Below are positions 26,883-59,687 of a DNA stretch of 64,000 nucleotides, one piece after another. The notes under the pieces are model-generated. The model did not search any database. It was given only the letters and a program-made list of their open reading frames with translations, and was not told where the DNA came from. Source of the stretch: Sphingobacterium populi (GTDB taxonomy: Bacteria > Bacteroidota > Bacteroidia > Sphingobacteriales > Sphingobacteriaceae); contig NZ_LQXS01000004.1 in NCBI RefSeq assembly GCF_001586775.1, positions 124,001 to 188,000 of the forward strand, given 5' to 3'. The position numbers and the translations under genes are program-made. Position 1 is the stretch's first letter. Each line of letters starts with the position of its first letter.

Positions 26883-27080
26883 ATGAGAAACGAAAATATA
26901 AAGAAAATGAACTCAAAAATACGTCGCGCCTACGTCGCGCCTACACTGAATATTTTTATCGTCGAATTAGAAAACAGTATCGCAGCAGGTTCCGCACAAG
27001 TTGTTGTTCAATCTCCGACTCAAGATGTAGATCACTTATGGGAGTCAAATGTCGCCGATGATCGCGAGCTTTATTGGTAG
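26883..27080 (+). CDS. Small protein paired with a fimbrillin-like lipoprotein gene
   Basis: A 65-residue protein. ATG 26883 is chosen because GGAGG lies seven bases upstream; 26871 is an alternative. The core has a pattern Y-x-x-P-x-x-N...E...IAAGS-x-QV, then an acidic Trp-containing end (DHLWESN). The product of 32227-32406 shares it (Y-F-K-P-I-V-N, E-Y-G-V-A-A-S-S-V-Q-V, ENWE). Both lie directly upstream of a fimbrillin-like lipoprotein gene, here with 27 bases between. Function unknown. An 11-bp tandem repeat (26920-26941) is inside the coding region; both copies are needed for the conserved frame. Confidence 0.72.
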   Translation: MRNENIKKMNSKIRRAYVAPTLNIFIVELENSIAAGSAQVVVQSPTQDVDHLWESNVADDRELYW

Positions 27081-27107: not shown

Positions 27108-28730
27108 ATGAAGAGCAACTTTTATCTTTTACTATTGTCGGTGGCAGTAGTATTGTATTCTTGTAATAAAGAGACCTTCCGAGAAGAAACCTCTGTTGAG
27201 GTGAACTTATTGGGTATAGAAATAGAAACTTCGGAACCTTCGGATACCGAAAGTCGTGCTGCGACTAGCGCGTCTATCCTTGAAAACGAATCACAAGAGT
27301 TAGCACACATCCCATTCGATCAGCACTTTGGTGTTACAGTGTCGTTAGCACGAGATTTTCCAAATACAGATGGCCGCAGTGATCTTGTGAAAGAAGAGAA
27401 CACGGTGTCGCGCGCAGCTGGAGTAACCAACCTTGGACCAATAACATGGAAAATGGAAGACGGTATTCAATACCGACTACTCGCTTATGATAGTAATGAG
27501 AGCAAGGTAATTGACACGGTATATACTGTCGGAAAGTACGGCAATAGTGCACTGAAGTTGAATCCTGAAACCACATACACTTTTGTACTTTATTCTACAA
27601 TGAGTAAATCTGAGGTGCCAGCCGCTCCAAACGGTAAATTGTCTGAAGCCGTATTCACAAACATAAATGGTAATACTGACTTTGTTTACTTTCGCAAAAC
27701 CTTCAAACTCAGCCCAGGCCAAAACAAATTGAACGTGACGCTAAGACACGTCTTCAGTCAGATAACGACACATATAAATACAGCAGACGTAGGGAATATC
27801 TCCACCATTAAAGCACGAATTGGCGATCACTTTTTATCGCCAACGATCGGCTTGAACAACGGCACCGTATTAACATATAACAACAAAGCCGAAAACGGAA
27901 AAGTATTAGAATTTGTTCAAAACACTCCTACAAGTGCCGCGAATGAAGCTTCCATAATCTGTAATAGCGGAGCTACTAAAAGCACATTAACATTTGATGA
28001 GCTAACGATCAACAATATCACCAAAAGAGGTGTTACAATTCCAAATGTTCAATTAGCCCCTGGAACGCGATATATCTTAACGTTGAAGATTAAAACTTTT
28101 ACACAAGACGTTGATCCAGGAATTGAATTGGGCGATCGCACTTATGCTCCTGGAAACCTGATTTACGACCGCAATAAAAAGACTTATCTTTTCTCTACGA
28201 AAGGTGAGGGTGATCTTTGGTTTAAAAATTACGTAAAACCACGACGTAATGATTTAGATAAGCTCCCTTGGGGGCAGAATAATCAAGAAGCACGTACGGA
28301 ACTAAATGGTGGCCCTGGTGACCCTTGTGCATTAGTCGCGCCATTAAATTCCTGGAGACTTCCAAAACGCGTAGAAATGGAAAACATCAAGAATGCTACT
28401 GAGGCAAACATTAGTGGGCATCCTGGTCCAGACATATATCATCCAGTTCGTTATATCGCACAAAAATATCCTGGAGGCGATAGACGAGGTATGTATTTCG
28501 GTACGCAAACTGATCCTGGTAGTAACTTTAATAAATTCCTTTTCATTTCATTCGATGGTATTTATAATAGCAATACTACTCGAAGTGATCTAGACGGCAC
28601 CGGATGGTACATGCTCAAAAATGGAAACAAATATGAATACATGCAAATAGGACCAAACATTAATACGTTTAATTTCTATGAGCTAGGACAGAATACTGCC
28701 GTATCGATCAGGTGCGTAAGAGCAAATTAG
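27108..28730 (+). CDS. Fimbrillin-like surface lipoprotein
   Basis: A 540-residue lipoprotein: signal peptide with lipobox (VLYSCNK, Cys near residue 19), then long beta-rich regions with the fimbrillin/Mfa-like layout (NKLNVTLRHVFSQITTHI near residues 205-222). The C-terminal part resembles surface-protein modules (WRLPKRVEME, ending in VSIRCVRAN). The paralogue at 30344-32155 has the same layout and ending. Such proteins are exported as lipoproteins and may polymerise into fimbriae or act as surface adhesins; which applies here is unknown. Confidence 0.8.
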   Translation: MKSNFYLLLLSVAVVLYSCNKETFREETSVEVNLLGIEIETSEPSDTESRAATSASILENESQELAHIPFDQHFGVTVSLARDFPNTDGRSDLVKEENTVSRAAGVTNLGPITWKMEDGIQYRLLAYDSNESKVIDTVYTVGKYGNSALKLNPETTYTFVLYSTMSKSEVPAAPNGKLSEAVFTNINGNTDFVYFRKTFKLSPGQNKLNVTLRHVFSQITTHINTADVGNISTIKARIGDHFLSPTIGLNNGTVLTYNNKAENGKVLEFVQNTPTSAANEASIICNSGATKSTLTFDELTINNITKRGVTIPNVQLAPGTRYILTLKIKTFTQDVDPGIELGDRTYAPGNLIYDRNKKTYLFSTKGEGDLWFKNYVKPRRNDLDKLPWGQNNQEARTELNGGPGDPCALVAPLNSWRLPKRVEMENIKNATEANISGHPGPDIYHPVRYIAQKYPGGDRRGMYFGTQTDPGSNFNKFLFISFDGIYNSNTTRSDLDGTGWYMLKNGNKYEYMQIGPNINTFNFYELGQNTAVSIRCVRAN

Positions 28731-28845: not shown

Positions 28846-29724
28846 TTATTGCCCCAAAAATTGACCAAGGTAAAGGATATTCTCGGCCAAATTTCGATCT
28901 TTTAATAACACTACTTTATTGCTATCAAGTAGATAAAATGTCGGAGAGGCCTTGAGGTCATACAAATTATCTGCTATAATAGATCGGTCGGTATTGATGC
29001 CGTTTATCCACAAGGGCGGAATATATTGCTGATAATCTTTCCACAAACTATACTCAGCGGTGGCGTAGATTGCGAGAATCTGTAAATCTCCTCGGCGAAT
29101 CCATTCCTGCACTGTCAATTCGGGTTGTAGATTTTCAATTGCACTAGCACACCCACCACATCCTGGCTCGTAGAAGAACAGTAGTGTATATGGTGCTTCT
29201 TGACTGTACATATCATGCCTTTTGCCGTCTGGCGTTTGAAAAACAAAATTGGTTGCCTTTGTGCCGGCGTTGTTTCGCCTAATTAAGGCTAGCCGCTGTT
29301 CAAATCTCTGCTTTTCATACTGGGGTATATCCTCGTTTTGCGCCATGAACTCGAGTACTGGCAAGTAGAGCTCCTCGTTGTACATTGAAGAATTGGGATT
29401 GTATAAGTATTTACCAAAATTCTCCACAAAAAACTCAAGTACTGCGGGTGTCTGAGAAGCTCGTTGCAGCATTTTTTTTAAGGCCGCTACCGACTCCTTG
29501 CTATCACTTTGCTGCGCAATCGTGATAAAATCTACTATAGCCTGCTCGCCAATCTCTGGCCTCACGATGGCTACAGTATCTTCCAAATTGTATTTGTCCC
29601 AAAACAGCGTCACCGCCGGTTTTTGACCTTCTCCTTGCTGCTGCTCGGACTTCTCTTTTTGCTGCTTGCAGGATGTGCTAAAAAGGATTAGAAGCACAAT
29701 GCAATATACCCAATGTGTAGTCAT
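28846..29724 (-). CDS. DUF5106-type lipoprotein with thioredoxin-like domain
   Basis: From ATG 29724 a 292-residue lipoprotein: signal peptide ending in FSTSCKQQ (Cys near residue 19), a Gln/Glu-rich linker, a DUF5106-like helical region (TLFWDKYNLEDT, about residues 40-160), then a thioredoxin-like domain with the redox pair C-G-G-C in YEPGCGGCASA near residue 190 and a late SPTFYLLDS cis-Pro region. Probably a periplasmic or outer-membrane-anchored thiol-disulfide protein. ATG 29745 is also possible. The HAD gene ends four bases upstream of 29749. Confidence 0.85.
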   Translation of the reverse strand: MTTHWVYCIVLLILFSTSCKQQKEKSEQQQGEGQKPAVTLFWDKYNLEDTVAIVRPEIGEQAIVDFITIAQQSDSKESVAALKKMLQRASQTPAVLEFFVENFGKYLYNPNSSMYNEELYLPVLEFMAQNEDIPQYEKQRFEQRLALIRRNNAGTKATNFVFQTPDGKRHDMYSQEAPYTLLFFYEPGCGGCASAIENLQPELTVQEWIRRGDLQILAIYATAEYSLWKDYQQYIPPLWINGINTDRSIIADNLYDLKASPTFYLLDSNKVVLLKDRNLAENILYLGQFLGQ

Positions 29725-29748
29725 ATTCTGCCACAGTTGTTTCAAGCA

Positions 29749-32226: not shown

Positions 32227-32406
32227 TTATAAGTCTGTAGAGCCGTATCCTTCACCACCGACTTCCCAATTTTCTATAGTGGGTTGATATGGCGTATCAT
32301 TGGATCCTCCAGAAACCTGAACCGAAGAAGCGGCGACTCCGTACTCCGTGATTAAAGAAACGACATTTACAATTGGTTTAAAATAGATTTTCTTTTGCTG
32401 TTTCAT
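32227..32406 (-). CDS. Small protein paired with the second fimbrillin-like gene
   Basis: A 59-residue coding region. It starts KQQKKIYFKPIVNVVSL and ends Gly-rich (EVGGEGYGSTDL). It shares with the 65-residue protein at 26883-27080 the pattern Y-x-x-P-x-x-N, an E, an alternating Ala/Ser segment with QV, and a late Trp-Glu. The match in both sequence and position (71 bases before a fimbrillin-like gene) is the evidence that it is real. No function is known. Confidence 0.68.
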   Translation of the reverse strand: MKQQKKIYFKPIVNVVSLITEYGVAASSVQVSGGSNDTPYQPTIENWEVGGEGYGSTDL

Positions 32407-33148: not shown

Positions 33149-34312
33149 ATGAAGATATTAGTCGTACTTACAGCATTTATTGTTGCCTTAATACTCGGAC
33201 GACTCCTTTTGCCTTACGTTCTACTTATCAGCTATCGTAAAAGATTATTCGATCCTGTTGATTCTCGGAAGGCACACCATCAATTAGTATCACGGCTTGG
33301 CGGCGTTACATTCGTACCGATACAATGTGTGCTCATAGTACTTACGTTGATCTTGTGCTATAGAAACAATCTGGTGGATTTTAATCTTGAAACTTTTGAG
33401 GTATATCCCATGGTTATGGGTTTGGTTTGTGGTCTAGTTGTGCTGTTTATAGTCGGGATCACAGATGACTTGATCGGCATTAGTGCAAAAACTAAGCTTT
33501 ATATGCAAATCGTAGTTGCTTGCTTTTTGCCCATATCCGGAGTATGGATCAATGACCTGTACGGCGTCTTCTTCATCACATATATTCCTGCTTGGATAGG
33601 TATACCGCTCACCATATTTATTACCGTTCTAATAATAAATGCGATTAACCTTATCGATGGTATCGACGGGCTCTGTTCAGGATTGGTATTGGTTGGTTGC
33701 CTGGCTTTAGGTACACTCTTTATGATCAATGAAGCTTGGCTACACGCATTATTTGCATTTATTACCGCAGGACTGCTAATTCCATTTTTTCATTACAATG
33801 TTTTCGGTATTTCGCGCAAAAAGCGAAAAATATTTATGGGAGACTCAGGAAGCCTAACGCTTGGCTTATCGATGTCCTTTCTGTCAGTAAGTTATGCCAT
33901 GAATAACCCACATATTCAGCCTTTTTCTGAAGGAGCGATCGTAGTGGCATTTACGGTATTGATCGTTCCAGTAATGGACGTTGCACGAGTTATGCTTGTC
34001 CGATTAAGATTAGGCACGCCAGTATTTCGGGCCGACCGCAGTCATATACATCACAAACTGCTTGACCTTGGAATGTCACACCAAAAGGCCATGATTTCGA
34101 TCATTTCCCTTGCTGGTTTTTTTTGTATCTTTAACGCTATCGCTGTTCAGCTAATTAGCAACAATATTGTACTAGCAGCAGATTTAATATTGTGGGGTGC
34201 TTTTCATACTGTTGTAGACAAAAGCCTTAAACGCAAGCAGTCCTTCGCCACGAAAAATGCTCCTAAGAAGTACAAAAGTCATAGTCAGGTAATTGCAGAT
34301 CAAATTAAATAA
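33149..34312 (+). CDS. WecA/MraY-family undecaprenyl-phosphate sugar-1-phosphate transferase
   Basis: A 387-residue multi-spanning membrane protein (about ten helices) that would start glycan assembly by moving a HexNAc-1-phosphate onto undecaprenyl phosphate. Family motifs: SRKAHHQLVSRLGG near residue 38, VGITDDLIG near 104 (Asp pair), NLIDGIDGL near 165, MGDSGSL near 228 and RSHIHHKL near 298. Sugar specificity cannot be read. It opens the polysaccharide locus, where the initiating enzyme is commonly first. Confidence 0.92.
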   Translation: MKILVVLTAFIVALILGRLLLPYVLLISYRKRLFDPVDSRKAHHQLVSRLGGVTFVPIQCVLIVLTLILCYRNNLVDFNLETFEVYPMVMGLVCGLVVLFIVGITDDLIGISAKTKLYMQIVVACFLPISGVWINDLYGVFFITYIPAWIGIPLTIFITVLIINAINLIDGIDGLCSGLVLVGCLALGTLFMINEAWLHALFAFITAGLLIPFFHYNVFGISRKKRKIFMGDSGSLTLGLSMSFLSVSYAMNNPHIQPFSEGAIVVAFTVLIVPVMDVARVMLVRLRLGTPVFRADRSHIHHKLLDLGMSHQKAMISIISLAGFFCIFNAIAVQLISNNIVLAADLILWGAFHTVVDKSLKRKQSFATKNAPKKYKSHSQVIADQIK

Positions 34313-34344: not shown

Positions 34345-35303
34345 ATGAAAATAGCCATCATAGGTGGATCAGGTTTTGTGGGCACAAAGTTAATTGACAC
34401 ATTAAGTGTCTCTCCCGAAACTTCCGTTATTAACATTGACAAACAACCTAGCCAGACACATGCGTCCATTTCTGTAATTGGCAATGTGCTAGATCCTGAT
34501 TCTTTGAGCCACGCATTAATTGGTGTAAATACCGTAGTTCTTTTGGCAGCAGAACATCGCGATGATGTATCGCCAACTTCTCTATATTACGACGTTAATG
34601 TTCAAGGAATGCAGAATACCTTGGAAGCGATGGAAAAACAGGGCGTAAAACAAATTGTATTCACCAGTTCAGTTGCCATTTATGGCTGGATAAAGATAAT
34701 CCCGACGAATCCTTTCCCGCCGACCCTTTTAACCATTATGGCAAAAGCAAATGGGAAGCTGAATTAGTTTTGCAGAAATGGGCACAAAACCATCCCGACT
34801 GGAGCATTGGCATTGTAAGACCAACCGTGATTTTTGGCGAAGGTAATCGTGGAAATGTATTTAATCTCTTAAATCAAATCGCCTCTGGAAAGTTTATGCT
34901 TATAGGAAAAGGTAATAACGAAAAATCAATGTCCTACATTGGAAACATTGTTGCCTTCTTAGCCTTTTTAATAAACACCATGTCTCCTGGTGTACGCGTA
35001 TACAATTATGTCGATAAACCAGATTTTTCTACGAAAGATTTAGTACATCACACCAGCACGATTCTAGGCAAAAGTATCCCTACGCTACGCATCCCTTACT
35101 GGTTAGGTATGCTAGGCGGCTATGGCTTTGATGTACTGGCTTTTATTACGAGAAAAAAGTTGCCAATTAGTTCCGTGCGCGTTAAGAAATTTTGCGCAAT
35201 CACCAAATACGATTCTAGCAAAGCGATGGAATCTGGATTCCAACCGCCATACACCATGCAGGAAGGGTTGAGAAGAACCTTAGCATCCGAGTTTGGAAAA
35301 TAA
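34345..35303 (+). pseudogene. NAD-dependent epimerase/dehydratase (extended SDR), frameshifted
   Basis: One missing T near 34687 splits a 319-residue SDR protein. The first part has GGSGFVGT (NAD-binding) near residue 8, LLAAEHRDD and FTSSVAIYG. Reading on in the restored frame gives FPADPFNHYGKSKWEAE, with the catalytic Y-x-x-x-K, then VRPTVIFGEGN and the C-terminal domain. The likely role is 4-epimerase or 4-keto-reductase making the sugar used by the adjacent WecA-like enzyme. Error or true inactivation cannot be told apart here. Confidence 0.85.
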
Positions 35304-50894: not shown

Positions 50895-52029
50895 GATCAA
50901 CGATCAACAATACAGAGTTTTGCAAGTAGGAAAATTCTATCCTATTAGAGGTGGAGTCGAAAAAGTAATGTACGACTTGATGATCGGCCTATCCAAAAGA
51001 AATATATACTGTGACATGCTGTGTGCCAGTACAGAAAATTTTGAGGCAGGTGAAATAAAAATCAACGAGTATGCGCGTGTATTTGTGGTACCTACACAAA
51101 TAAAATTAGCATCGACTATGCTTGCGCCGTCTATGATTTCGCAGCTTCGCAAAATCTGTCATCATTATAGTGTGATCCACATTCATCATCCGGATCCAAT
51201 GGCTTGTCTTTCTTTATTTTTATCTGGCTATAAAGGTAAAATTGTGTTGCATTGGCATAGCGACATTGTGAAACAAAAGAAACTTCTCGCGTTGTACAAG
51301 CCTTTACAAGATTGGATAATTAAACGTGCTGATATTATCGTGGGAACCTCGCCGACCTATGTGCAGGAATCTCCTTTTTTACAAAATGTGCAGCATAAGG
51401 TTACCTATATCCCGATAGGCGTTGAGCCGTTACAACCAGATAAAAGCATATCAAGTAGTATCCGAAAAAAATATGCTGGCAAGAAAATTATTTTTGCACT
51501 GGGTCGTTTAGTCGAGTACAAAGGCTATCAGTATATGATCGAGGCCATGAAACTTTTAGATGATAGTTTTCAGCTAATAATTGGCGGCAAAGGGCCTTTA
51601 AAAGAAGAGTTACAAAACCTGATTGCATCATTAGGTCTTAAGCATCGTGTCGAGCTCATCGACTACATTCCAGATCATGAGGTGCCCAGCTACTACGATA
51701 TTTGCGATATTTTCTGCTTAAGCTCTACTCAAAAGACTGAAGCTTTTGCCATTGTACAAATCGAAGCCATGTCTCTTGGTAAGCCAATCGTTTCTACTCA
51801 TATAGAAGGCTCTGGCGTAAGTTGGGTAAATGCCGATAAAGTTTCTGGACTTGTGGTAGCGAAAGAAAATATTGAAGCTCTAGCCAGTGCAATACGTACT
51901 TTGGCCGAAGATGAAACTTTATATCAAAAAATTAGCGGGGGTTCTCTAGATCGCTATGAGACGTTTTTCACCGATCAACGCATGATAGACAAAACTATTG
52001 CTATTTATGAAAATAGTACTGCTTGCTAA
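50887..52029 (+). CDS. Family 4 glycosyltransferase
   Basis: A 380-residue GT-B enzyme with YPIRGGVEKVMYDLMIGL near residue 18, LHWHSDIVKQKK near 120, FALGRLVEYKGYQYMIEAM near 200 and TEAFAIVQIEAMSLGKPIV near 283 (E-x7-E signature). It is the last glycosyltransferase of the locus; a 124-base gap with a new promoter element follows. Confidence 0.92.
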   Translation: MTKINDQQYRVLQVGKFYPIRGGVEKVMYDLMIGLSKRNIYCDMLCASTENFEAGEIKINEYARVFVVPTQIKLASTMLAPSMISQLRKICHHYSVIHIHHPDPMACLSLFLSGYKGKIVLHWHSDIVKQKKLLALYKPLQDWIIKRADIIVGTSPTYVQESPFLQNVQHKVTYIPIGVEPLQPDKSISSSIRKKYAGKKIIFALGRLVEYKGYQYMIEAMKLLDDSFQLIIGGKGPLKEELQNLIASLGLKHRVELIDYIPDHEVPSYYDICDIFCLSSTQKTEAFAIVQIEAMSLGKPIVSTHIEGSGVSWVNADKVSGLVVAKENIEALASAIRTLAEDETLYQKISGGSLDRYETFFTDQRMIDKTIAIYENSTAC

Positions 52030-52120: not shown

Positions 52121-52128
52121 TAGATTTG
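52121..52128 (+). promoter_or_regulatory. -7 promoter element in front of the peptidase-PqqD-kinase cassette
   Basis: TAGATTTG, 25 bases before the ATG at 52154, in the only sizeable gap of this part of the locus. No well-placed TTG is visible. It suggests the cassette can be transcribed apart from the glycosyltransferases. Confidence 0.5.
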
Positions 52129-52153
52129 TTATTAAGATAATCTGGTTCTTTCT

Positions 52154-52609
52154 ATGGCAAAAACTTTATCGAAAACCATCGAAAACCATCTTTTTTTCCA
52201 ACATGTACAAGAGTATATTGATGATGGTAAGGATGTCGTTTTTTCGGTACGAGGCTCCAGTATGAGTCCTTTTTTAAAAGAACGTGACCTTATCACGATA
52301 AAACCACTGAAAGACAAAGATTTGAAAGCCGGCCATATCGTATTGGCACGTTATAAAAAAGGGTATATTCTTCACCGTGTCATTCGGATAGATAAAGAGT
52401 TTCTTTTCCTGGCGGGTGATGCCAATTTAGTACAAATAGAAAAAGTAGATCGTAATGCTGTTGTTGGCTTTCTTAGTGAAGCTACTCGAGACAAAAAAGA
52501 CATTCCGCTTTACACATCACGCATGTTGTGCTATGCAAAATTGTGGTATTATATACGACCTATTAGAAGAGTCTGGATCAAATTGTTTATTCGTAAAATA
52601 AACCCATGA
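52154..52609 (+). CDS. S24/S26-type (LexA/signal peptidase fold) peptidase
   Basis: A 151-residue protein with the Ser region of the fold, VRGSSMSPFLKERD near residues 33-46 (catalytic Ser in GSSMSP), a candidate general-base Lys in ARYKKGYILHRV near 68-79, and GDAN near 92. Unlike LepB it has no N-terminal membrane anchor; the C-terminus (LWYYIRPIRRVWIKLFIRK) is basic and amphipathic and may lie on the membrane. It overlaps the PqqD-like gene by four bases, so it is probably the protease of this cassette; the substrate is not known. Confidence 0.82.
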   Translation: MAKTLSKTIENHLFFQHVQEYIDDGKDVVFSVRGSSMSPFLKERDLITIKPLKDKDLKAGHIVLARYKKGYILHRVIRIDKEFLFLAGDANLVQIEKVDRNAVVGFLSEATRDKKDIPLYTSRMLCYAKLWYYIRPIRRVWIKLFIRKINP

Positions 52610-52881
52610 AGTTAAGAAAAGAATTAAAATTAAGAAAAATAGGAAAAGACTATATTATTGTAGAACCTGGTCAAGATAAAGTCGATCTCTCAAAAGTATA
52701 TACCTTAAATGAAACAGCCGCTTGGTTGTGGGAAGAGCTGCATCCTCAAGAATTTTCTAAAGAGGATATGGTAAAAAAACTGGTGGAGGAATACGACGTT
52801 ACGGAAGAGCAAGCCAATAAAGATATTCAGAAATTGCTCGACATTTTTGTAGCTCAAAAATTACTTGACGAAAATTATTAA
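52606..52881 (+). CDS. PqqD-family peptide-binding protein (RRE-like)
   Basis: A 91-residue protein of the PqqD fold: two short strands at the start, YTLNETAAWLWEEL near residues 35-48, and a C-terminal helix pair (EYDVTEEQANKDIQKLLDIFVAQKLL). In known pathways such proteins are RiPP recognition elements that present a precursor peptide to modifying enzymes. It starts inside the stop of the peptidase gene and is followed after six bases by the nucleotidyltransferase. Confidence 0.9.
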   Translation: MKLRKELKLRKIGKDYIIVEPGQDKVDLSKVYTLNETAAWLWEELHPQEFSKEDMVKKLVEEYDVTEEQANKDIQKLLDIFVAQKLLDENY

Positions 52882-52887
52882 CAAATA

Positions 52888-53964
52888 GTGAAAGCACGGC
52901 GTGTATTTCTTACTTTATTGCGATCAGGTCTTTGGAATAGCCCCGTGGCTGATTTTGAAGATTTTCCGTTGTCTTCTAAACAATGGCACGATCTGTTTCA
53001 CATCGCACTAAGTCATACCGTTGAAGGACTTGTCTATCAAGGCTTAATTACTTTGCCTGATCATTTATTACCTCCTCGATCTTTGGCTTTATCCTGGACA
53101 GTGCGTGTAGAACAAATTGAACAGCGCAATGATTGGATGGATGAGCAAGTGAGTACCCAAACACATTTCTTTGCTAATCATGGATTGCATCCCTTTCTTT
53201 TGAAAGGCCAAGGTGTAGCACGTTATTACGACAAGCCAAGAGTTAGACTTCCAGGAGATATTGATTGGTTTTTTAATAACAAACAGGATTACAATCTAGC
53301 TAGAAAACTGTTATCTGATCAGGGCGTGTCTATAAAATCCGTACCTGGTTTTAGTACGTACGCCATTTGGAATAATACCGAGGTTGAGTTGCATCGTAGG
53401 ATGATCGATATTCACAACCCCTTCAAATTAAAGTATACGAAGAGTCTTTATAAATCCGAAGCTTCGATCTCGCAATCCGTTAGGCATCATGGTGTTTGTT
53501 GGAACTTACCTTCTGCTTTACTCATGCATGTTTCGGTTACTGTTCACATCTTAAAGCATCTATTGGCCTATGGAATAGGTTTGAGACAGCTTTGCGATGC
53601 CGCACGTGTATGTTATTCGCTCAAAGAAGAACTAGATTCTTCAAAATTGAGCTTTGTATATCGGCAGTTTGGAATGCTTAAATTTGTCAATGTCTTGCAC
53701 GGTCTTCTTGTAGAATACCTAGGTTTACCAGAAGATCGAGTACCTATTCCTTACAGTAAGCATTCTTTTGCAGAAACTATGATGCAGGATGTATGGGAGG
53801 CAGGTAATTTTGGCTTTTCGGCAGATGCAACAGGCACTTCAGACGGTAGTCGCAAAGTAGTAGATCTGCGGATCTGGAAAAATATGGTCAAATATCTTCC
53901 ATTTGCACGTATGGAAGCTTCATCTTTTCCGTTTGTACACTTTTATTCACGTTTTAGTAACTAA
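52888..53964 (+). CDS. Nucleotidyltransferase family protein (NTP_transf_5)
   Basis: A 358-residue protein with a GTG start. The diagnostic motif is LLKGQGVARYYDKPRVRLPG followed by DIDWF, near residues 110-135, the G-D-I-D metal site of the NTP_transf_5 group. Homologues occur in phosphorylated-lasso-peptide clusters (paeninodin type) and in HPr-kinase-related/PqqD three-gene systems. The reaction is not settled; transfer of a nucleotide to a peptide or sugar is the inference. Confidence 0.87.
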   Translation: MKARRVFLTLLRSGLWNSPVADFEDFPLSSKQWHDLFHIALSHTVEGLVYQGLITLPDHLLPPRSLALSWTVRVEQIEQRNDWMDEQVSTQTHFFANHGLHPFLLKGQGVARYYDKPRVRLPGDIDWFFNNKQDYNLARKLLSDQGVSIKSVPGFSTYAIWNNTEVELHRRMIDIHNPFKLKYTKSLYKSEASISQSVRHHGVCWNLPSALLMHVSVTVHILKHLLAYGIGLRQLCDAARVCYSLKEELDSSKLSFVYRQFGMLKFVNVLHGLLVEYLGLPEDRVPIPYSKHSFAETMMQDVWEAGNFGFSADATGTSDGSRKVVDLRIWKNMVKYLPFARMEASSFPFVHFYSRFSN

Positions 53965-53973
53965 CCGTCGTCC

Positions 53974-55598
53974 ATGACTTATACGTTTCGACAGCATACG
54001 AACTGGATTAGAACCTTTGTAAAAGGGTATCGAGTAAGGTTGTCGTTATATTTTGTGTTAGAACTTATTGGAATAGCCCTGTCCCTTCTTTTCGTTTACT
54101 GGTCCAAAGTAGCTATTGATCGTGCAACTGCCGATTTTGAAAAGGAGATCGCTCCCATATTGCTGTTGATTGTGCTTGCTGCAGTGGGAGGTGTAGTACT
54201 TCGTGCTGCATCTAGTTGGATTGATGAGAATACACGGTTGCGAATGAGTGTTGAGCTTCAAAACACATTGACCAAAGAGCAGATGTCATCTAGTTGGGCT
54301 TCGATAAAAAAAAGGCATACTGGTGATCTAATGCTTAGGCTTCAAGAAGATAGTAAAGAAGTGATACAAATGATCGGTTCTTCCGCAATATCATTTGCAA
54401 TTACTATAATAAAGCTCTTGGCTTCTCTATTTTTTCTTTGGAGTATGGATCCAGTTTTAGCCGCTATGATACTTTTCATCACGCCGCTATTCTTATTCTC
54501 CAAGATCTATTTTAAGAAGATGAGAATTCTGAATCAAGAGGCAAAAGCGGCAGACAGTGCTGTAGCAAACATCGTACAAGAAAATTTGCGATTCAGGATG
54601 ATTATCCAAGCACTTGGTCTTTTTGGCTACCGAGCAAGCAAGCTTCAGCAGGAACAAAGTCGGCTTCTTCAATTAAAAATGCGGCAAATCAACTTCAGTT
54701 TGATCAGTAATACGATTGTACGCGTTACTATGAGTGCTGGATATCTGATTGCTTTTATTTGGGGAGTTTATCGCCTACACCATCAAGAGATTTCATTTGG
54801 AACAATGACTGCTTTTCTGCAATTAGTAGGTCGCATTCAGAATCCTATACTTTCAGCTGCGGCCTTTTTTCCTAGTTTTGTTCGTTTTAGAGTTTCTTTA
54901 GATCGTATTCTTGAACTTTTCAATGAAAAAAAATAACATTACCTTCTCCGATAAAATTAGAAACACTTCAAAAAATAACTTTTGATAAAGTTTCTTTTAA
55001 ATATGAAGAAGCTAATGTCATAAATGATTTATCTTTTCAAGTTAGTAGGGGCAAACCATTAGCAATATTAGGGAGCAGTGGACGGGGCAAAACTACATTG
55101 ATGCGCCTTTTGCTGGCTTTATGCTCGCCCGACAGTGGAAAAATTTTGCTCGAAGATGGACAGGATAAAGCACATGTATTACAGGAAAATTATCGTTCAA
55201 ACTTTGCTTATGTTCCTCAAGGAAATTCCTTATTCACAGGCACCATAAGGGAAAATATAATGGGTGTCCAATCGATTTCAATGGAAGAAATTAATCAAGC
55301 GCTGAACGTAGCATGTGCAAATTTTGTCCATGATTTGCCGCAAGGAATACATACCTTTATAGGTGAATCAGGATATGGCTTATCGGAAGGACAAGCGCAA
55401 CGAATTGCTATTGCTAGGGCTGTGATACAAAAGGTACCTGTATGGCTTTTTGACGAACCGACATCCGCTTTAGATGATGAAACATCAAGCCAATTAATAC
55501 GACATTTATTTTCTGAAGGACGAAATAAAATTTTGATATTTGTAACGCATGATTTGAAATTAGCGGAACGTTGTGATACATCGGTTTATTTGCACTAA
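53974..55598 (+). pseudogene. ABC transporter, fused permease and ATPase, frameshifted
   Basis: One A missing from the A run at 54926-54933 splits a 541-residue half-transporter. The first part holds the transmembrane domain (six helices, about residues 20-300) and ends in DRILELFNEKK. The restored frame continues ITFDKVSFKYEE and then the ATPase: Walker A GSSGRGKTT, signature YGLSEGQAQR, Walker B LFDEPTSALD and VTHDLKLAE. In the cassette it takes the place of the exporter (the D protein) of peptide clusters. The segment 54937-55097 also holds coding sequence in the shifted frame. Confidence 0.86.
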
Positions 55599-55604
55599 CT
55601 AAAA

Positions 55605-56528
55605 ATGAAGAACGAAACTAACCAAAAGCCTTCTGTACTCCAATCTTTCTACTACACTATCGCAAACTTAACGCTCGAAGTGCAATCTGATACGGGCCTT
55701 GATATTGATAGTTTTCTGCCGAGTTTCGAAGATTTTCGAACAGATGCAGCTTTGGCTGGCAAGCCGATAAGTAGAGTACTCATCACCAAAGAACGTTTTG
55801 ATAAGCCGCCAACTGGAGCCAAACTTTTAAGTGATATATCCATTGTATGGGGCAACCGTTTCAAATTTTTTGAAATGCCGGATGAATACGTTACCACCAT
55901 CATGAGCGCACATTCGCCAGGTACTTGGTTCATGACAAGTAAGAAGGATTTTTCTCAATCAATTGTACATTGGGTCTACGATTCAGTGGCGCCCATCGAA
56001 ATCATAAGTTGGCTATTAATGGTAACTTTTGCTCAATCTGCGTTATTGTACAAAACGATCTTAATCCACGCTTCAGTCATCGAAAAAGGGTCAGAAGGCT
56101 TCGCTTTTCTAGGTAAAAGCGGAACTGGCAAGAGCACACATAGTAATCTGTGGAAAAAATATATCTCTGGATCAAAGCTCCTGAATGATGATAACCCCGC
56201 TGTCAAAATTGAGAACGATGGCAAGGTTCGTATCTATGGCACACCATGGAGTGGCAAAACACCTTGCTACAGAAATGTGGGTGTAGATTTGCGAGCAATT
56301 GTGAGACTTAAACAAGCCCCGTTCAACAAAATGAGTTGGCACACAGGACAATTTGCCTTTATCGCATTATTGCCTAGCTGCTCGGCATTACGTTGGAATC
56401 AAGATCTATTTAGCAGCATGGCAGATTTGGTAGAACATATCGTAACGAATGTACCTATAGGGGAGCTGGAATGTCTGCCTACAGAAGAGGCCGCTCAGTT
56501 GTGTGCATCTGAAATTGAAAAAGCTTAA
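55605..56528 (+). CDS. HPr-kinase-like (HprK-related) serine kinase
   Basis: A 307-residue protein whose C-terminal half is an HprK-type P-loop domain: FLGKSGTGKSTHSNLW near residues 165-180, LLNDDNPAV near 192 with the acidic metal/catalytic pair, and YGTPWSGKTPCYRN near 212. The N-terminal half (about 1-140) is unlike HprK. Relatives occur beside PqqD-like and NTP_transf_5 genes in polysaccharide loci and, as PadeK-type kinases, phosphorylate the C-terminus of lasso peptides. HPr is not expected as substrate; a peptide or lipid-linked sugar is possible. Confidence 0.86.
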   Translation: MKNETNQKPSVLQSFYYTIANLTLEVQSDTGLDIDSFLPSFEDFRTDAALAGKPISRVLITKERFDKPPTGAKLLSDISIVWGNRFKFFEMPDEYVTTIMSAHSPGTWFMTSKKDFSQSIVHWVYDSVAPIEIISWLLMVTFAQSALLYKTILIHASVIEKGSEGFAFLGKSGTGKSTHSNLWKKYISGSKLLNDDNPAVKIENDGKVRIYGTPWSGKTPCYRNVGVDLRAIVRLKQAPFNKMSWHTGQFAFIALLPSCSALRWNQDLFSSMADLVEHIVTNVPIGELECLPTEEAAQLCASEIEKA

Positions 56529-57341: not shown

Positions 57342-59687
57342 ATGCTAAAAGATCAAAATACTACAGAATCAGAAGATAAGTCGATCAATGTACTTGACTT
57401 ACTGAAGTATCTTTTTTTTCATTGGAAGTGGTTTCTTCTTTCCGTATTATTCTTTGGAGGCTATTATTACTATCAATATAGTAAGACTCCGTTTGTATAC
57501 AGTAAGTCGGCCATCTTAATGGTTAAAACTCCTGAGAATACCAACGTGACAGCTCGTTTTACACGTAGCTCGATGATTAATACTATCAGTGTTGCTAGCG
57601 AAGTGCTGCAGTTAAAATCAAAAGAGTTGATGCGTCATACGATTGCTGAAATTCAGGGAGATATATCCTATTCGAAAACCGAAGGATTACGCAATATCGA
57701 GCTGTATAAAGATTCACCAATTCGAGTCAGCTTTTCGAATATTGATACGGAAGCCCGGGCATCAATGACCATTGTACCGAGAGATTCAAATACTGTAGAT
57801 TTTCTTCTGCTTGACAAAGATGATATCATTCATAGTCAAAAAGTTAAATTAAATGTTGAAACGAAAACACCTCTAGGACTTTTAACAATATCTCCTAGCA
57901 AATTTTATAAACCTTCTTTTTTTGGTGAAGAAATCTCGGTAACAAAAGTACCAAGAGAGAGTATGGTTTCGTATTTTCTTTCCAGAATGAATATCTCACA
58001 GATCGAAGAAGATGCCGGTCTGTTGCAACTTACATTAGAGGATCACTCTCCAAAAAGGGCTGTAGACCTTATTAAAACTTTAGTAGAGGTATACAACGAG
58101 CAAACCATAGAAGAAAAGAACAGAATTGCCGTTAGCACAGCCGATTTCATTCGAGAACGCATCGCTATAATTGAACAAGATCTTGGTACAGTAGAATCGG
58201 ATCTAGAGCGTATAAAAATTGATAATAGTGGCATGGATGTTAAAGACGCCGCTAGCATGTATATCACTGAAAGTAGAAGCTATTTGAATAGTAGTCGCGA
58301 ACTCGAAACACAATTGAGCCTCGCCGAAATGATGCGAGATTATATTTACGATGCTAGCAGATCTGATCGACTCATACCAACAAATATGGGATTAGCAGAC
58401 TTAAACGTAGAACGCCACATCAATGACTATAATAGTGCCCTTTTACGAAGAAATCGATTACTAGAAGGCAACAACTCCAATAATCCTGTAGTACAGGATA
58501 TCGAGCAGTCTTTAAGCTATAATAGACAAAATATTGAGCGTGCTGTTGACAATGCTATTAACGGATTGCGCATAAGGGTGCAAAATGCTCAAAGAGACAT
58601 GGAAATGGCACAAAGAGACGCCATCTCCATGCCAGCTAAACAACGGCAAGTATTGGGTATCGAAAGAAATCAGAAAGTCAAAGAAGAATTATATATTCTA
58701 CTCTTAAATAAGCGAGAAGAGAATGCCCTTAATCAGGCGACTGCTGATGATAATATTCGTGTCATTGATCCCGCATCGGGAAGTGATAGTCCTGTTTCTC
58801 CTAAGAAAATTAGAAAAATAGCAATTGGTGTCGGAATCGGATTAGCTATTCCTACCGCAATACTACTGTTAATTTTATTTTTGAATACCTCGGTGCGCGA
58901 TCGCAAAGATTTGGAAAAATCATTAACTGCACCTTTCTTAGGAGAAATACCTTTTTCCAAGAATAATAAGAAAAATGTGCATGTCGTCGTGCGCGAACAA
59001 GCCACAGATCCTGTCACAGAAACCTTTCGTATTCTGCGCACAAATATCGACTTTATGTCAAATGGTAAGAGCAAACAAGTAATTACCTTGACATCACTTA
59101 CAGAAGGCGTAGGTAAAACTTTTTGTGCGATAAATCTAGCCACGAGTTTAGCTTTTTTAAAGAAAAAGGTCGTGCTGCTGGATTTAGATCTTCGTAAAGG
59201 AACTTTAAGTGCCAAAATTAATATACCCAAAAACAAGGGAGTTAGTCATTATCTTGCCGACAGAACAGTATCACTGCAAGATATTCTTTATAAGAATGAA
59301 ATCTCGGGTATTGTCGATATAATTCCAATTGGAGTAATCGCTCCAAATCCTGTAGAACTCCTACTGAGTGATCGCTTAGACAGTTTAGTAGCAACGCTAA
59401 AAGAAGAATATGATTACATAGTAGTAGATAACGTTCCTGTAGGTGTTGTAGCTGACTCTTCAATCATAAATAGAATATCAGAACTGACCATATTTGTTAT
59501 TCGTGCTGGTAAGATGGATAAAAGACAATTACCGGAAATTGAAAATATCTATCAGCAAGGTACATTAAACAATATGGGTATAGTATTAAATGGTATTCGG
59601 AAAGGTCGTGCCGGATATGGTTACGGGTACGGATATGGTTACGGATATGGTTACGGGTATGGTTATGGATATGGAGCAAAGAAATAA
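57342..59687 (+). CDS. Wzc-like chain-length/BY-kinase protein with Tyr-Gly tail
   Basis: A 781-residue inner-membrane protein: first helix near residues 25-45, periplasmic Wzz region with coiled-coils (to about 470), second helix near 485-510, then a cytoplasmic tyrosine-kinase domain with Walker A SLTEGVGKTF near 585, Walker A' VVLLDLDLR near 608 and Walker B YDYIVVDNVP near 695. It ends in ten Tyr-Gly pairs (59616-59675) then AKK. Tyr-rich tails of Wzc are autophosphorylated and control polymer length; a strictly alternating Tyr-Gly tail probably does the same. Confidence 0.95.
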   Translation: MLKDQNTTESEDKSINVLDLLKYLFFHWKWFLLSVLFFGGYYYYQYSKTPFVYSKSAILMVKTPENTNVTARFTRSSMINTISVASEVLQLKSKELMRHTIAEIQGDISYSKTEGLRNIELYKDSPIRVSFSNIDTEARASMTIVPRDSNTVDFLLLDKDDIIHSQKVKLNVETKTPLGLLTISPSKFYKPSFFGEEISVTKVPRESMVSYFLSRMNISQIEEDAGLLQLTLEDHSPKRAVDLIKTLVEVYNEQTIEEKNRIAVSTADFIRERIAIIEQDLGTVESDLERIKIDNSGMDVKDAASMYITESRSYLNSSRELETQLSLAEMMRDYIYDASRSDRLIPTNMGLADLNVERHINDYNSALLRRNRLLEGNNSNNPVVQDIEQSLSYNRQNIERAVDNAINGLRIRVQNAQRDMEMAQRDAISMPAKQRQVLGIERNQKVKEELYILLLNKREENALNQATADDNIRVIDPASGSDSPVSPKKIRKIAIGVGIGLAIPTAILLLILFLNTSVRDRKDLEKSLTAPFLGEIPFSKNNKKNVHVVVREQATDPVTETFRILRTNIDFMSNGKSKQVITLTSLTEGVGKTFCAINLATSLAFLKKKVVLLDLDLRKGTLSAKINIPKNKGVSHYLADRTVSLQDILYKNEISGIVDIIPIGVIAPNPVELLLSDRLDSLVATLKEEYDYIVVDNVPVGVVADSSIINRISELTIFVIRAGKMDKRQLPEIENIYQQGTLNNMGIVLNGIRKGRAGYGYGYGYGYGYGYGYGYGYGAKK

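Follow-up and report, generated by a model that had tools for sequence, protein, structure and literature searches.

An ATP-binding cassette (ABC) exporter is part of lasso peptide clusters, and in HPr-rel-A systems, by the account given in an initial annotation of the DNA considered here, a kinase, a PqqD-type protein and a nucleotidyltransferase occur near polysaccharide genes. According to a review (PMC9266682), the kinases of lasso pathways have in common a His-Lys-Asp-Asp motif that is essential, and their target is the precursor; the presence of one or two hexoses on the phosphoserine of pseudomycoidin requires PsmN, whose annotation is that of a nucleotidyltransferase. The present study concerns a five-gene cassette with comparable parts in a stretch of 64,000 nucleotides of Sphingobacterium populi (contig NZ_LQXS01000004.1 of assembly GCF_001586775.1, positions 124,001 to 188,000), called the window below, which belongs to a draft genome of 3.56 Mb in 49 contigs. 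The cassette is probably the maturation and export machinery of a peptide system resembling the ribosomally synthesized and post-translationally modified peptides (RiPPs). The initial annotation had pictured a cassette for RiPP-like tailoring and export in which an S26 peptidase takes the place of a leader protease, and this picture is well supported by the co-occurrence of the genes and by a matching precursor family.

All five genes are on the + strand, either overlapping or separated by short gaps, in the order S26-type peptidase, PqqD, NTP_transf_5, ABC exporter and kinase. A gene for a GT4 glycosyltransferase, ending at 52029, flanks them on the 5′ side. On the other side the wza gene begins 14 bp past the kinase gene and is followed by wzc, so that the cassette stands directly upstream of wza/wzc as had been stated. 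The features, in window coordinates, are:

52121-52128, + strand: possible Bacteroidota -7 promoter element TAGATTTG, an exact TAnnTTTG match ahead of the cassette
52154-52609, + strand: S24/S26-type peptidase, 151 amino acids (aa); PF00717, 31.1 bits (cut-off 23.3)
52606-52881, + strand: PqqD-type protein, 91 aa, with a 4 bp overlap with the peptidase gene; PF05402, 56.2 bits (cut-off 23.4)
52888-53964, + strand: NTP_transf_5 nucleotidyltransferase, 358 aa, GTG start; PF14907, 117.9 bits (cut-off 31.2)
53974-54936, + strand: ABC exporter, membrane half; PF00664, 96 bits
54930-55598, + strand: ABC exporter, ATPase half, in another frame; PF00005, 103 bits
55605-56528, + strand: HPrK/PEPCK-superfamily kinase, 307 aa, assigned from predicted fold and invariant residues
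56542-57333, + strand: wza-type polysaccharide export lipoprotein; PF02563 and SLBB
57342-59687, + strand: wzc-type chain-length/tyrosine autokinase; TIGR01007, 140 bits, above cut-off

Pfam confirms the peptidase, PqqD and NTP_transf_5 assignments among the five packed genes that had been described; the exporter is not a single open reading frame (ORF), and the kinase, which reaches the threshold of no Pfam family, is recognized by its predicted fold and invariant residues.

The cassette is inherited as a unit. NTP_transf_5 occurs in 26 of 36 Sphingobacterium genomes, and 25 of those 26 carry a full-length kinase; the remaining one (G021) is a fragmented assembly with a kinase fragment only. 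Of 17 genomes examined for S26, PqqD and kinase, 6 hold all three and 11 hold none (G021 counted among the latter). The order S26-PqqD-NTP_transf_5-ABC-kinase-wza-wzc recurs in Sphingobacterium, Elizabethkingia, Pedobacter and some Bacteroidales bins, as the initial annotation would lead one to expect of a true cassette, and the gene set was also found in Bacteroides and Prevotella. Variants in Bacteroidales include PqqD-NTP_transf_5-kinase-wza-wzc and a free-standing kinase-S26-PqqD-NTP_transf_5-ABC arrangement (e.g. Bacteroides cellulosilyticus). In a tally of 57 kinase loci flanked on both sides by 4 kb or more, PqqD was near the kinase in 55, S26 in 45, ABC in 37 and NTP_transf_5 in 32. 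This recurrence of gene order and content is beyond chance.

A scan of linked loci for short conserved ORFs, which had been put forward as a check, yielded one new peptide family. Besides PqqD, it was the only recurring family among the short ORFs of 21 loci that resembles a real gene and not the shadow of a larger gene. The peptides are about 45-80 aa long and consist of a conserved leader, with the consensus Y-x-x-P-x6-[IV]-E-[LM]-E-x-G-I-A-A-x-S, and a variable core; neither Pfam nor NCBIfam holds a model for them. Over 82 distinct peptides, pairwise identity averages 0.435 for leaders and 0.204 for cores; the Glu 13 residues past the leader Tyr is conserved in 99%, the Ser at the leader end in 85%. 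Synonymous changes exceed non-synonymous ones between close pairs. The cores are acidic, rich in Gly and Asp, and neither cationic nor amphipathic. By eye the peptides have no Sec signal or lipobox.

No precursor gene had been seen in the window, yet two candidates are present, each paired with a lipoprotein gene. Both were matched by a profile hidden Markov model (HMM) that was trained on 47 dispersed peptides, outside cassette loci only, in order to reduce circularity:

26883-27080, + strand: candidate precursor peptide A, 65 aa, MRNENIKKMNSKIRRAYVAPTLNIFIVELENSIAAGSAQVVVQSPTQDVDHLWESNVADDRELYW; dispersed-peptide HMM 52.9 bits, E 2.6e-14
27108-28730, + strand: surface lipoprotein paired with peptide A, 540 aa, 28 bp past it
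28846-29745, - strand: DUF5106/thioredoxin-like lipoprotein, 299 aa, past the peptide B lipoprotein; PF17127, 112.7 bits
30344-32185, - strand: surface lipoprotein paired with peptide B, up to 613 aa, about 42 bp past it, ending in ...NVRCVRR
32227-32406, - strand: candidate precursor peptide B, 59 aa, MKQQKKIYFKPIVNVVSLITEYGVAASSVQVSGGSNDTPYQPTIENWEVGGEGYGSTDL; dispersed-peptide HMM 41.7 bits, E 8e-11

Both pairs lie just ahead of the capsule genes, since the capsule run starts at 33149. No precursor ORF was found within the cassette itself or in the gap between the GT4 and S26 genes. A search of the whole genome gave seven further, weaker candidates; among those inspected, two (L220 and L221) are followed by a lipoprotein gene and one (L219) is not. 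Elizabethkingia sp. YR214 has 26 matches. Peptides in three loci of Bacteroides cellulosilyticus (L187, L192 and L201) show the same leader style with another tail (...SDLE.LI.DILT.E/K) and lipoprotein genes next to them; these may represent a second, large branch of the family among gut Bacteroides.

The peptides track the cassette. All 25 kinase-positive Sphingobacterium genomes contain peptide matches (1-15 each), against 4 of 10 kinase-negative members of the genus, the other six having none; G021 was excluded from this comparison. None of 23 genomes of other families was matched by the peptide HMM. Related species are not independent, and the co-occurrence is therefore supportive and not a formal test. 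Applied to loci centred on a cassette, the dispersed-peptide HMM detected, in addition to the two window peptides, peptides in 10 of 20, 7 of 33 and 14 of 47 loci. At locus L047 the peptide, its lipoprotein, PqqD, NTP_transf_5, ABC exporter and kinase are co-directional in a single run, and in three Bacteroidales loci (L134, L137 and L149) a peptide and its lipoprotein directly follow wzc.

The pairing with lipoproteins holds for most peptides. An ORF of at least 250 aa lies within 94 bp downstream of 64 of 76 peptides, and 50 of these 64 partners satisfy a strict lipobox rule, as compared with 81 of 672 control gene pairs; most of the remaining 14 resemble lipoproteins by eye. The partners are about 400-1100 aa long. 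The one paired with peptide A appears, from weak homology, to have a fimbrillin-like N-terminal part and a C-terminal end like Fib_succ_major/Lcl_C. Among partner homologues the matches to Mfa_like_1, Lcl_C and Fib_succ_major are all below threshold (Mfa_like_1 24.3 bits in one homologue, cut-off 27). A partner lipoprotein had no sequence match in the PDB and gave a poor structure model, with a predicted local distance difference test (pLDDT) score of 49.7. Neighbours of 540-670 aa in L037-L049 were considered as lasso cyclases and rejected, as most are lipoproteins ending in ...VRCVR, while the one in L049 is a primase and that in L037 is sulfatase-like. Two lipoproteins have C-termini resembling those of neighbouring peptides: ...NGGNVWE (L137, 14337-16796) and ...SKEGNVWD (L149, 14351-16843), compared with peptide ends ...DNPWS and ...SKNDWD. 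In four loci (L041, L042, L044 and L045) the S26 and ABC genes adjoin a gene for a lipoprotein that, at about 300 aa and with a Cys-x-x-Cys motif of the thioredoxin kind, is similar to the DUF5106 protein of the window. The peptide system may include a thiol step or partner.

The kinase had no meaningful sequence match in the PDB, and a fold search was used in its place. Its AlphaFold2 model (pLDDT 90.3) matched phosphoenolpyruvate carboxykinase (PEPCK) with a Z score of 15.8 over 244 residues, and HPr kinase/phosphatase (HPrK/P) was matched as well. Among 35 sequences His155, Lys176, Asp195 and Asp196 are invariant, as are the Walker A motif GKSGTGKST, NDDNP and G-x-PWSGK. On account of the predicted fold and the four invariant residues, the protein is assigned, as modelled, to the HPrK/PEPCK superfamily, of which it has the fold and the P-loop. 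The four residues are of the same types as the His-Lys-Asp-Asp of the lasso kinases (PMC9266682). The nearest NCBIfam model, TIGR04352 (HprK_rel_A), gave 21 bits against a cut-off of 200. Thus, of the two proteins for which HMM support had been sought, PqqD passes its Pfam threshold and the kinase falls short. The NCBIfam models nearest to PqqD are those of lasso PqqD proteins, also below cut-off (31.9 versus 80). The nucleotidyltransferase has the motif LKG...RLPGDIDWF and is 35-44% identical to its orthologues in the genus.

Judged by its sequence, the peptidase is of the S24/S26 type, with a catalytic Ser, a general base and a PF00717 score above cut-off. All 13 homologues compared retain Ser36, His74 and Asp89, and the best sequence relatives of the peptidase in the PDB are the catalytic subunits SEC11C and SEC11A, which together point to an active site of the archaeal/endoplasmic reticulum (ER) signal peptidase type (Ser-His-Asp) rather than Ser-Lys. 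No N-terminal membrane helix is apparent. We propose this enzyme as the leader protease of the cassette; the small-x-Ser at the end of the leader would fit a cut like that of a signal peptidase.

As to the chemistry of peptide modification, we infer the following. PqqD would bind the peptide through its leader, and the kinase would phosphorylate a hydroxyl residue of the peptide. NTP_transf_5 may then extend the phosphate with a sugar or nucleotide unit, by analogy with PsmN in pseudomycoidin. The S26 peptidase, cytosolic or peripheral to the membrane, would cut past the small-x-Ser (A-x-S), and the ABC protein would export the core, which may act at the cell surface jointly with the large lipoprotein whose gene comes right after that of the peptide. 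A single cassette could in this way serve several peptide/lipoprotein pairs scattered over the genome, and the window holds two of these pairs.

Several observations weigh against the peptide-maturation reading. No Ser or Thr of the core is conserved, and the sole conserved hydroxyl, that of the leader-end Ser, may be a mere cut site. Within 10 kb of many cassettes there is no precursor. Four kinase-negative genomes (G002, G009, G016 and G035) contain peptides, mostly with an EEW...DW-type core, so that some peptides may not need the cassette. A short HMM has weak matches in Bacteroides cellulosilyticus, and the ABC exporter is frameshifted in the window strain.

The best surviving alternative, an unlikely one, is that a capsule protein or carrier is the target of the kinase and nucleotidyltransferase, which would regulate or decorate the exported glycan, the peptides being unrelated neighbours. 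In the window, as in 25 of the 57 loci, wza/wzc come immediately after the cassette, an arrangement that occurs in Sphingobacterium, Elizabethkingia and Bacteroidales. Moreover, in L039, L043 and L050 other wza/wzc pairs score far lower against the Wza/Wzc of the window than the pairs at the cassette do, and the scores suggest that the cassette is accompanied by a Wza/Wzc subtype of its own. However, other loci are free-standing and cassettes without wza/wzc are common, including 14 loci with ABC, PqqD and S26 only; a leader peptidase, an exporter and PqqD have no obvious role in glycan control; and the precursor family tracks the cassette. The control or decoration of the exported glycan, which the initial annotation had suggested, is a conjecture. 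A different connection to the capsule, rather unlikely in our estimate, would make the peptides phosphoglycan carriers, in which a phosphate-sugar linkage, built on the peptide by the kinase and nucleotidyltransferase, takes the Wza/Wzc exopolysaccharide and the paired surface lipoprotein holds the conjugate on the cell, serving capsule anchoring or priming in Bacteroidota.

It is improbable that the mature peptides are bacteriocins or signals acting on neighbours, with each paired lipoprotein as immunity protein or receptor for its own peptide. The export machinery is of the RiPP type, and many variable peptides per genome, as in Elizabethkingia sp. YR214, mostly beside their own surface protein, would suit such a role. 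Nevertheless, the lipoproteins, which by weak homology are adhesin-like (fimbrillin- or lectin-like), are at their size unlike small immunity proteins, and the acidic cores are not of the cationic or amphipathic kind. Quite improbable, finally, is the idea that the short ORFs encode structural partners of the lipoproteins (e.g. a fimbrial subunit) secreted without the cassette and linked to it only through shared surface-locus neighbourhoods: peptides do occur in the cassette-less G002, G009 and G016, with lipoproteins next to them in G009, and the lipoprotein C-termini of L137 and L149 resemble peptide ends, but every kinase-positive genome of the genus has peptide matches, and the peptides, having no Sec signal or lipobox by eye, need an exporter other than Sec.

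The cassette-less genomes G009, G002 and G016 also deserve a description of their own. At L076, L222, L078 and L072 they hold related peptides, several with EEW...DW-like tails and some followed by lipoproteins. Such EEW...DW-type peptides may use another maturation route.

Two genes of the window are broken by frameshifts. The ABC exporter is split by a one-base frameshift at an A8 run (54926-54933). Full-length relatives, including the three nearest, have a single ORF of about 541 aa, and the two halves merged with a one-base slip align with them end to end. An NAD-dependent epimerase gene (34345-35303, + strand) is likewise split, into ORFs of 140 and 177 aa, by a frameshift near 34690, and its continuation ...LDKDNPDESFPADPFNHYGKSKW sits in a different frame; a second frameshift in the same locus suggests either sequencing errors or decay of the genes. 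The A8 run could represent an error, a strain-specific loss or a slippage-based switch. Programmed frameshifting was considered and is not favoured; because the relatives are intact and the epimerase is also frameshifted, a sequencing error or a strain-specific lesion is likelier. The -7 element that had been assigned to the cassette is present as TAGATTTG, but it is weak evidence for a promoter because the window contains many TAnnTTTG matches (91, against 68 +/- 8 by chance), and it was dropped as evidence.

If the peptide-maturation reading is correct, the system would be an undescribed class of ribosomal peptide whose precursors, enzymes and surface partner can be named, spanning Sphingobacterium, Elizabethkingia and gut Bacteroidales with 1-26 peptides per genome among those counted. 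It would provide substrates for the orphan kinase, PqqD and nucleotidyltransferase families near polysaccharide loci and make the function of NTP_transf_5 testable. The recurrent adjacency to wza/wzc raises a testable link between a modified peptide and the capsule. A search of the literature at hand returned nothing relevant on HPr-rel-A, on RiPPs with fimbrillin or on RiPPs with capsule.

Compared with known systems, the cassette differs from HPr-rel-A in its kinase, whose relation to HprK_rel_A scores 21 bits, far under the curated TIGR04352 cut-off, and in the addition of an S26 peptidase, an ABC exporter and a precursor family. By that threshold it is not an HPr-rel-A system, a comparison that had been offered, although it has the combination of kinase, PqqD and nucleotidyltransferase ascribed to that type. 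With SynChlorMet it has weak matches in common, kinase to ScmC at 17.6 bits and PqqD to ScmD at 17.5 bits, both below cut-off; no radical SAM enzyme was found among the genes scanned with Pfam. The peptidase has the active-site Ser, His and Asp of the archaeal/ER signal peptidases (SEC11, TIGR02228), but it scores below their cut-off, has no apparent N-terminal membrane helix, and is proposed to cut the leaders of exported peptides and not Sec signals.

The closest likeness is to lasso tailoring (paeninodin PadeK, pseudomycoidin PsmK/PsmN), which also employs a PqqD-type protein, an HPrK-like His-Lys-Asp-Asp kinase, a nucleotidyltransferase and a leader-core peptide (PMC9266682). In contrast to lasso systems, the cassette has an S26 Ser-His-Asp peptidase in place of the B2 transglutaminase-like protease and no linked cyclase resembling Asn synthase; its leaders are different and without the penultimate Thr, and most of its peptides are paired with a surface lipoprotein. 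B2 (Transglut_core3, PF13471) was found in none of nine genomes searched, eight of them Sphingobacterium with the cassette. For the cyclase (PF00733), the two matches in the genome of the window are one ORF on contig C2 and not on the cassette contig C4, and full-length matches in G004, G012 and G028 are far from the cassettes. The absence of cyclase and B2 that had been reported thus holds, and for this reason the likeness to lasso systems extends to the parts and not to membership. By analogy, the cassette would work like the tailoring arm of phosphorylated lasso pathways while not being a lasso system itself. What it has in common with RiPP systems in general is a short precursor with a conserved leader and a variable core, and the genetic linkage of that precursor with a recognition protein, modifying enzymes and an exporter.

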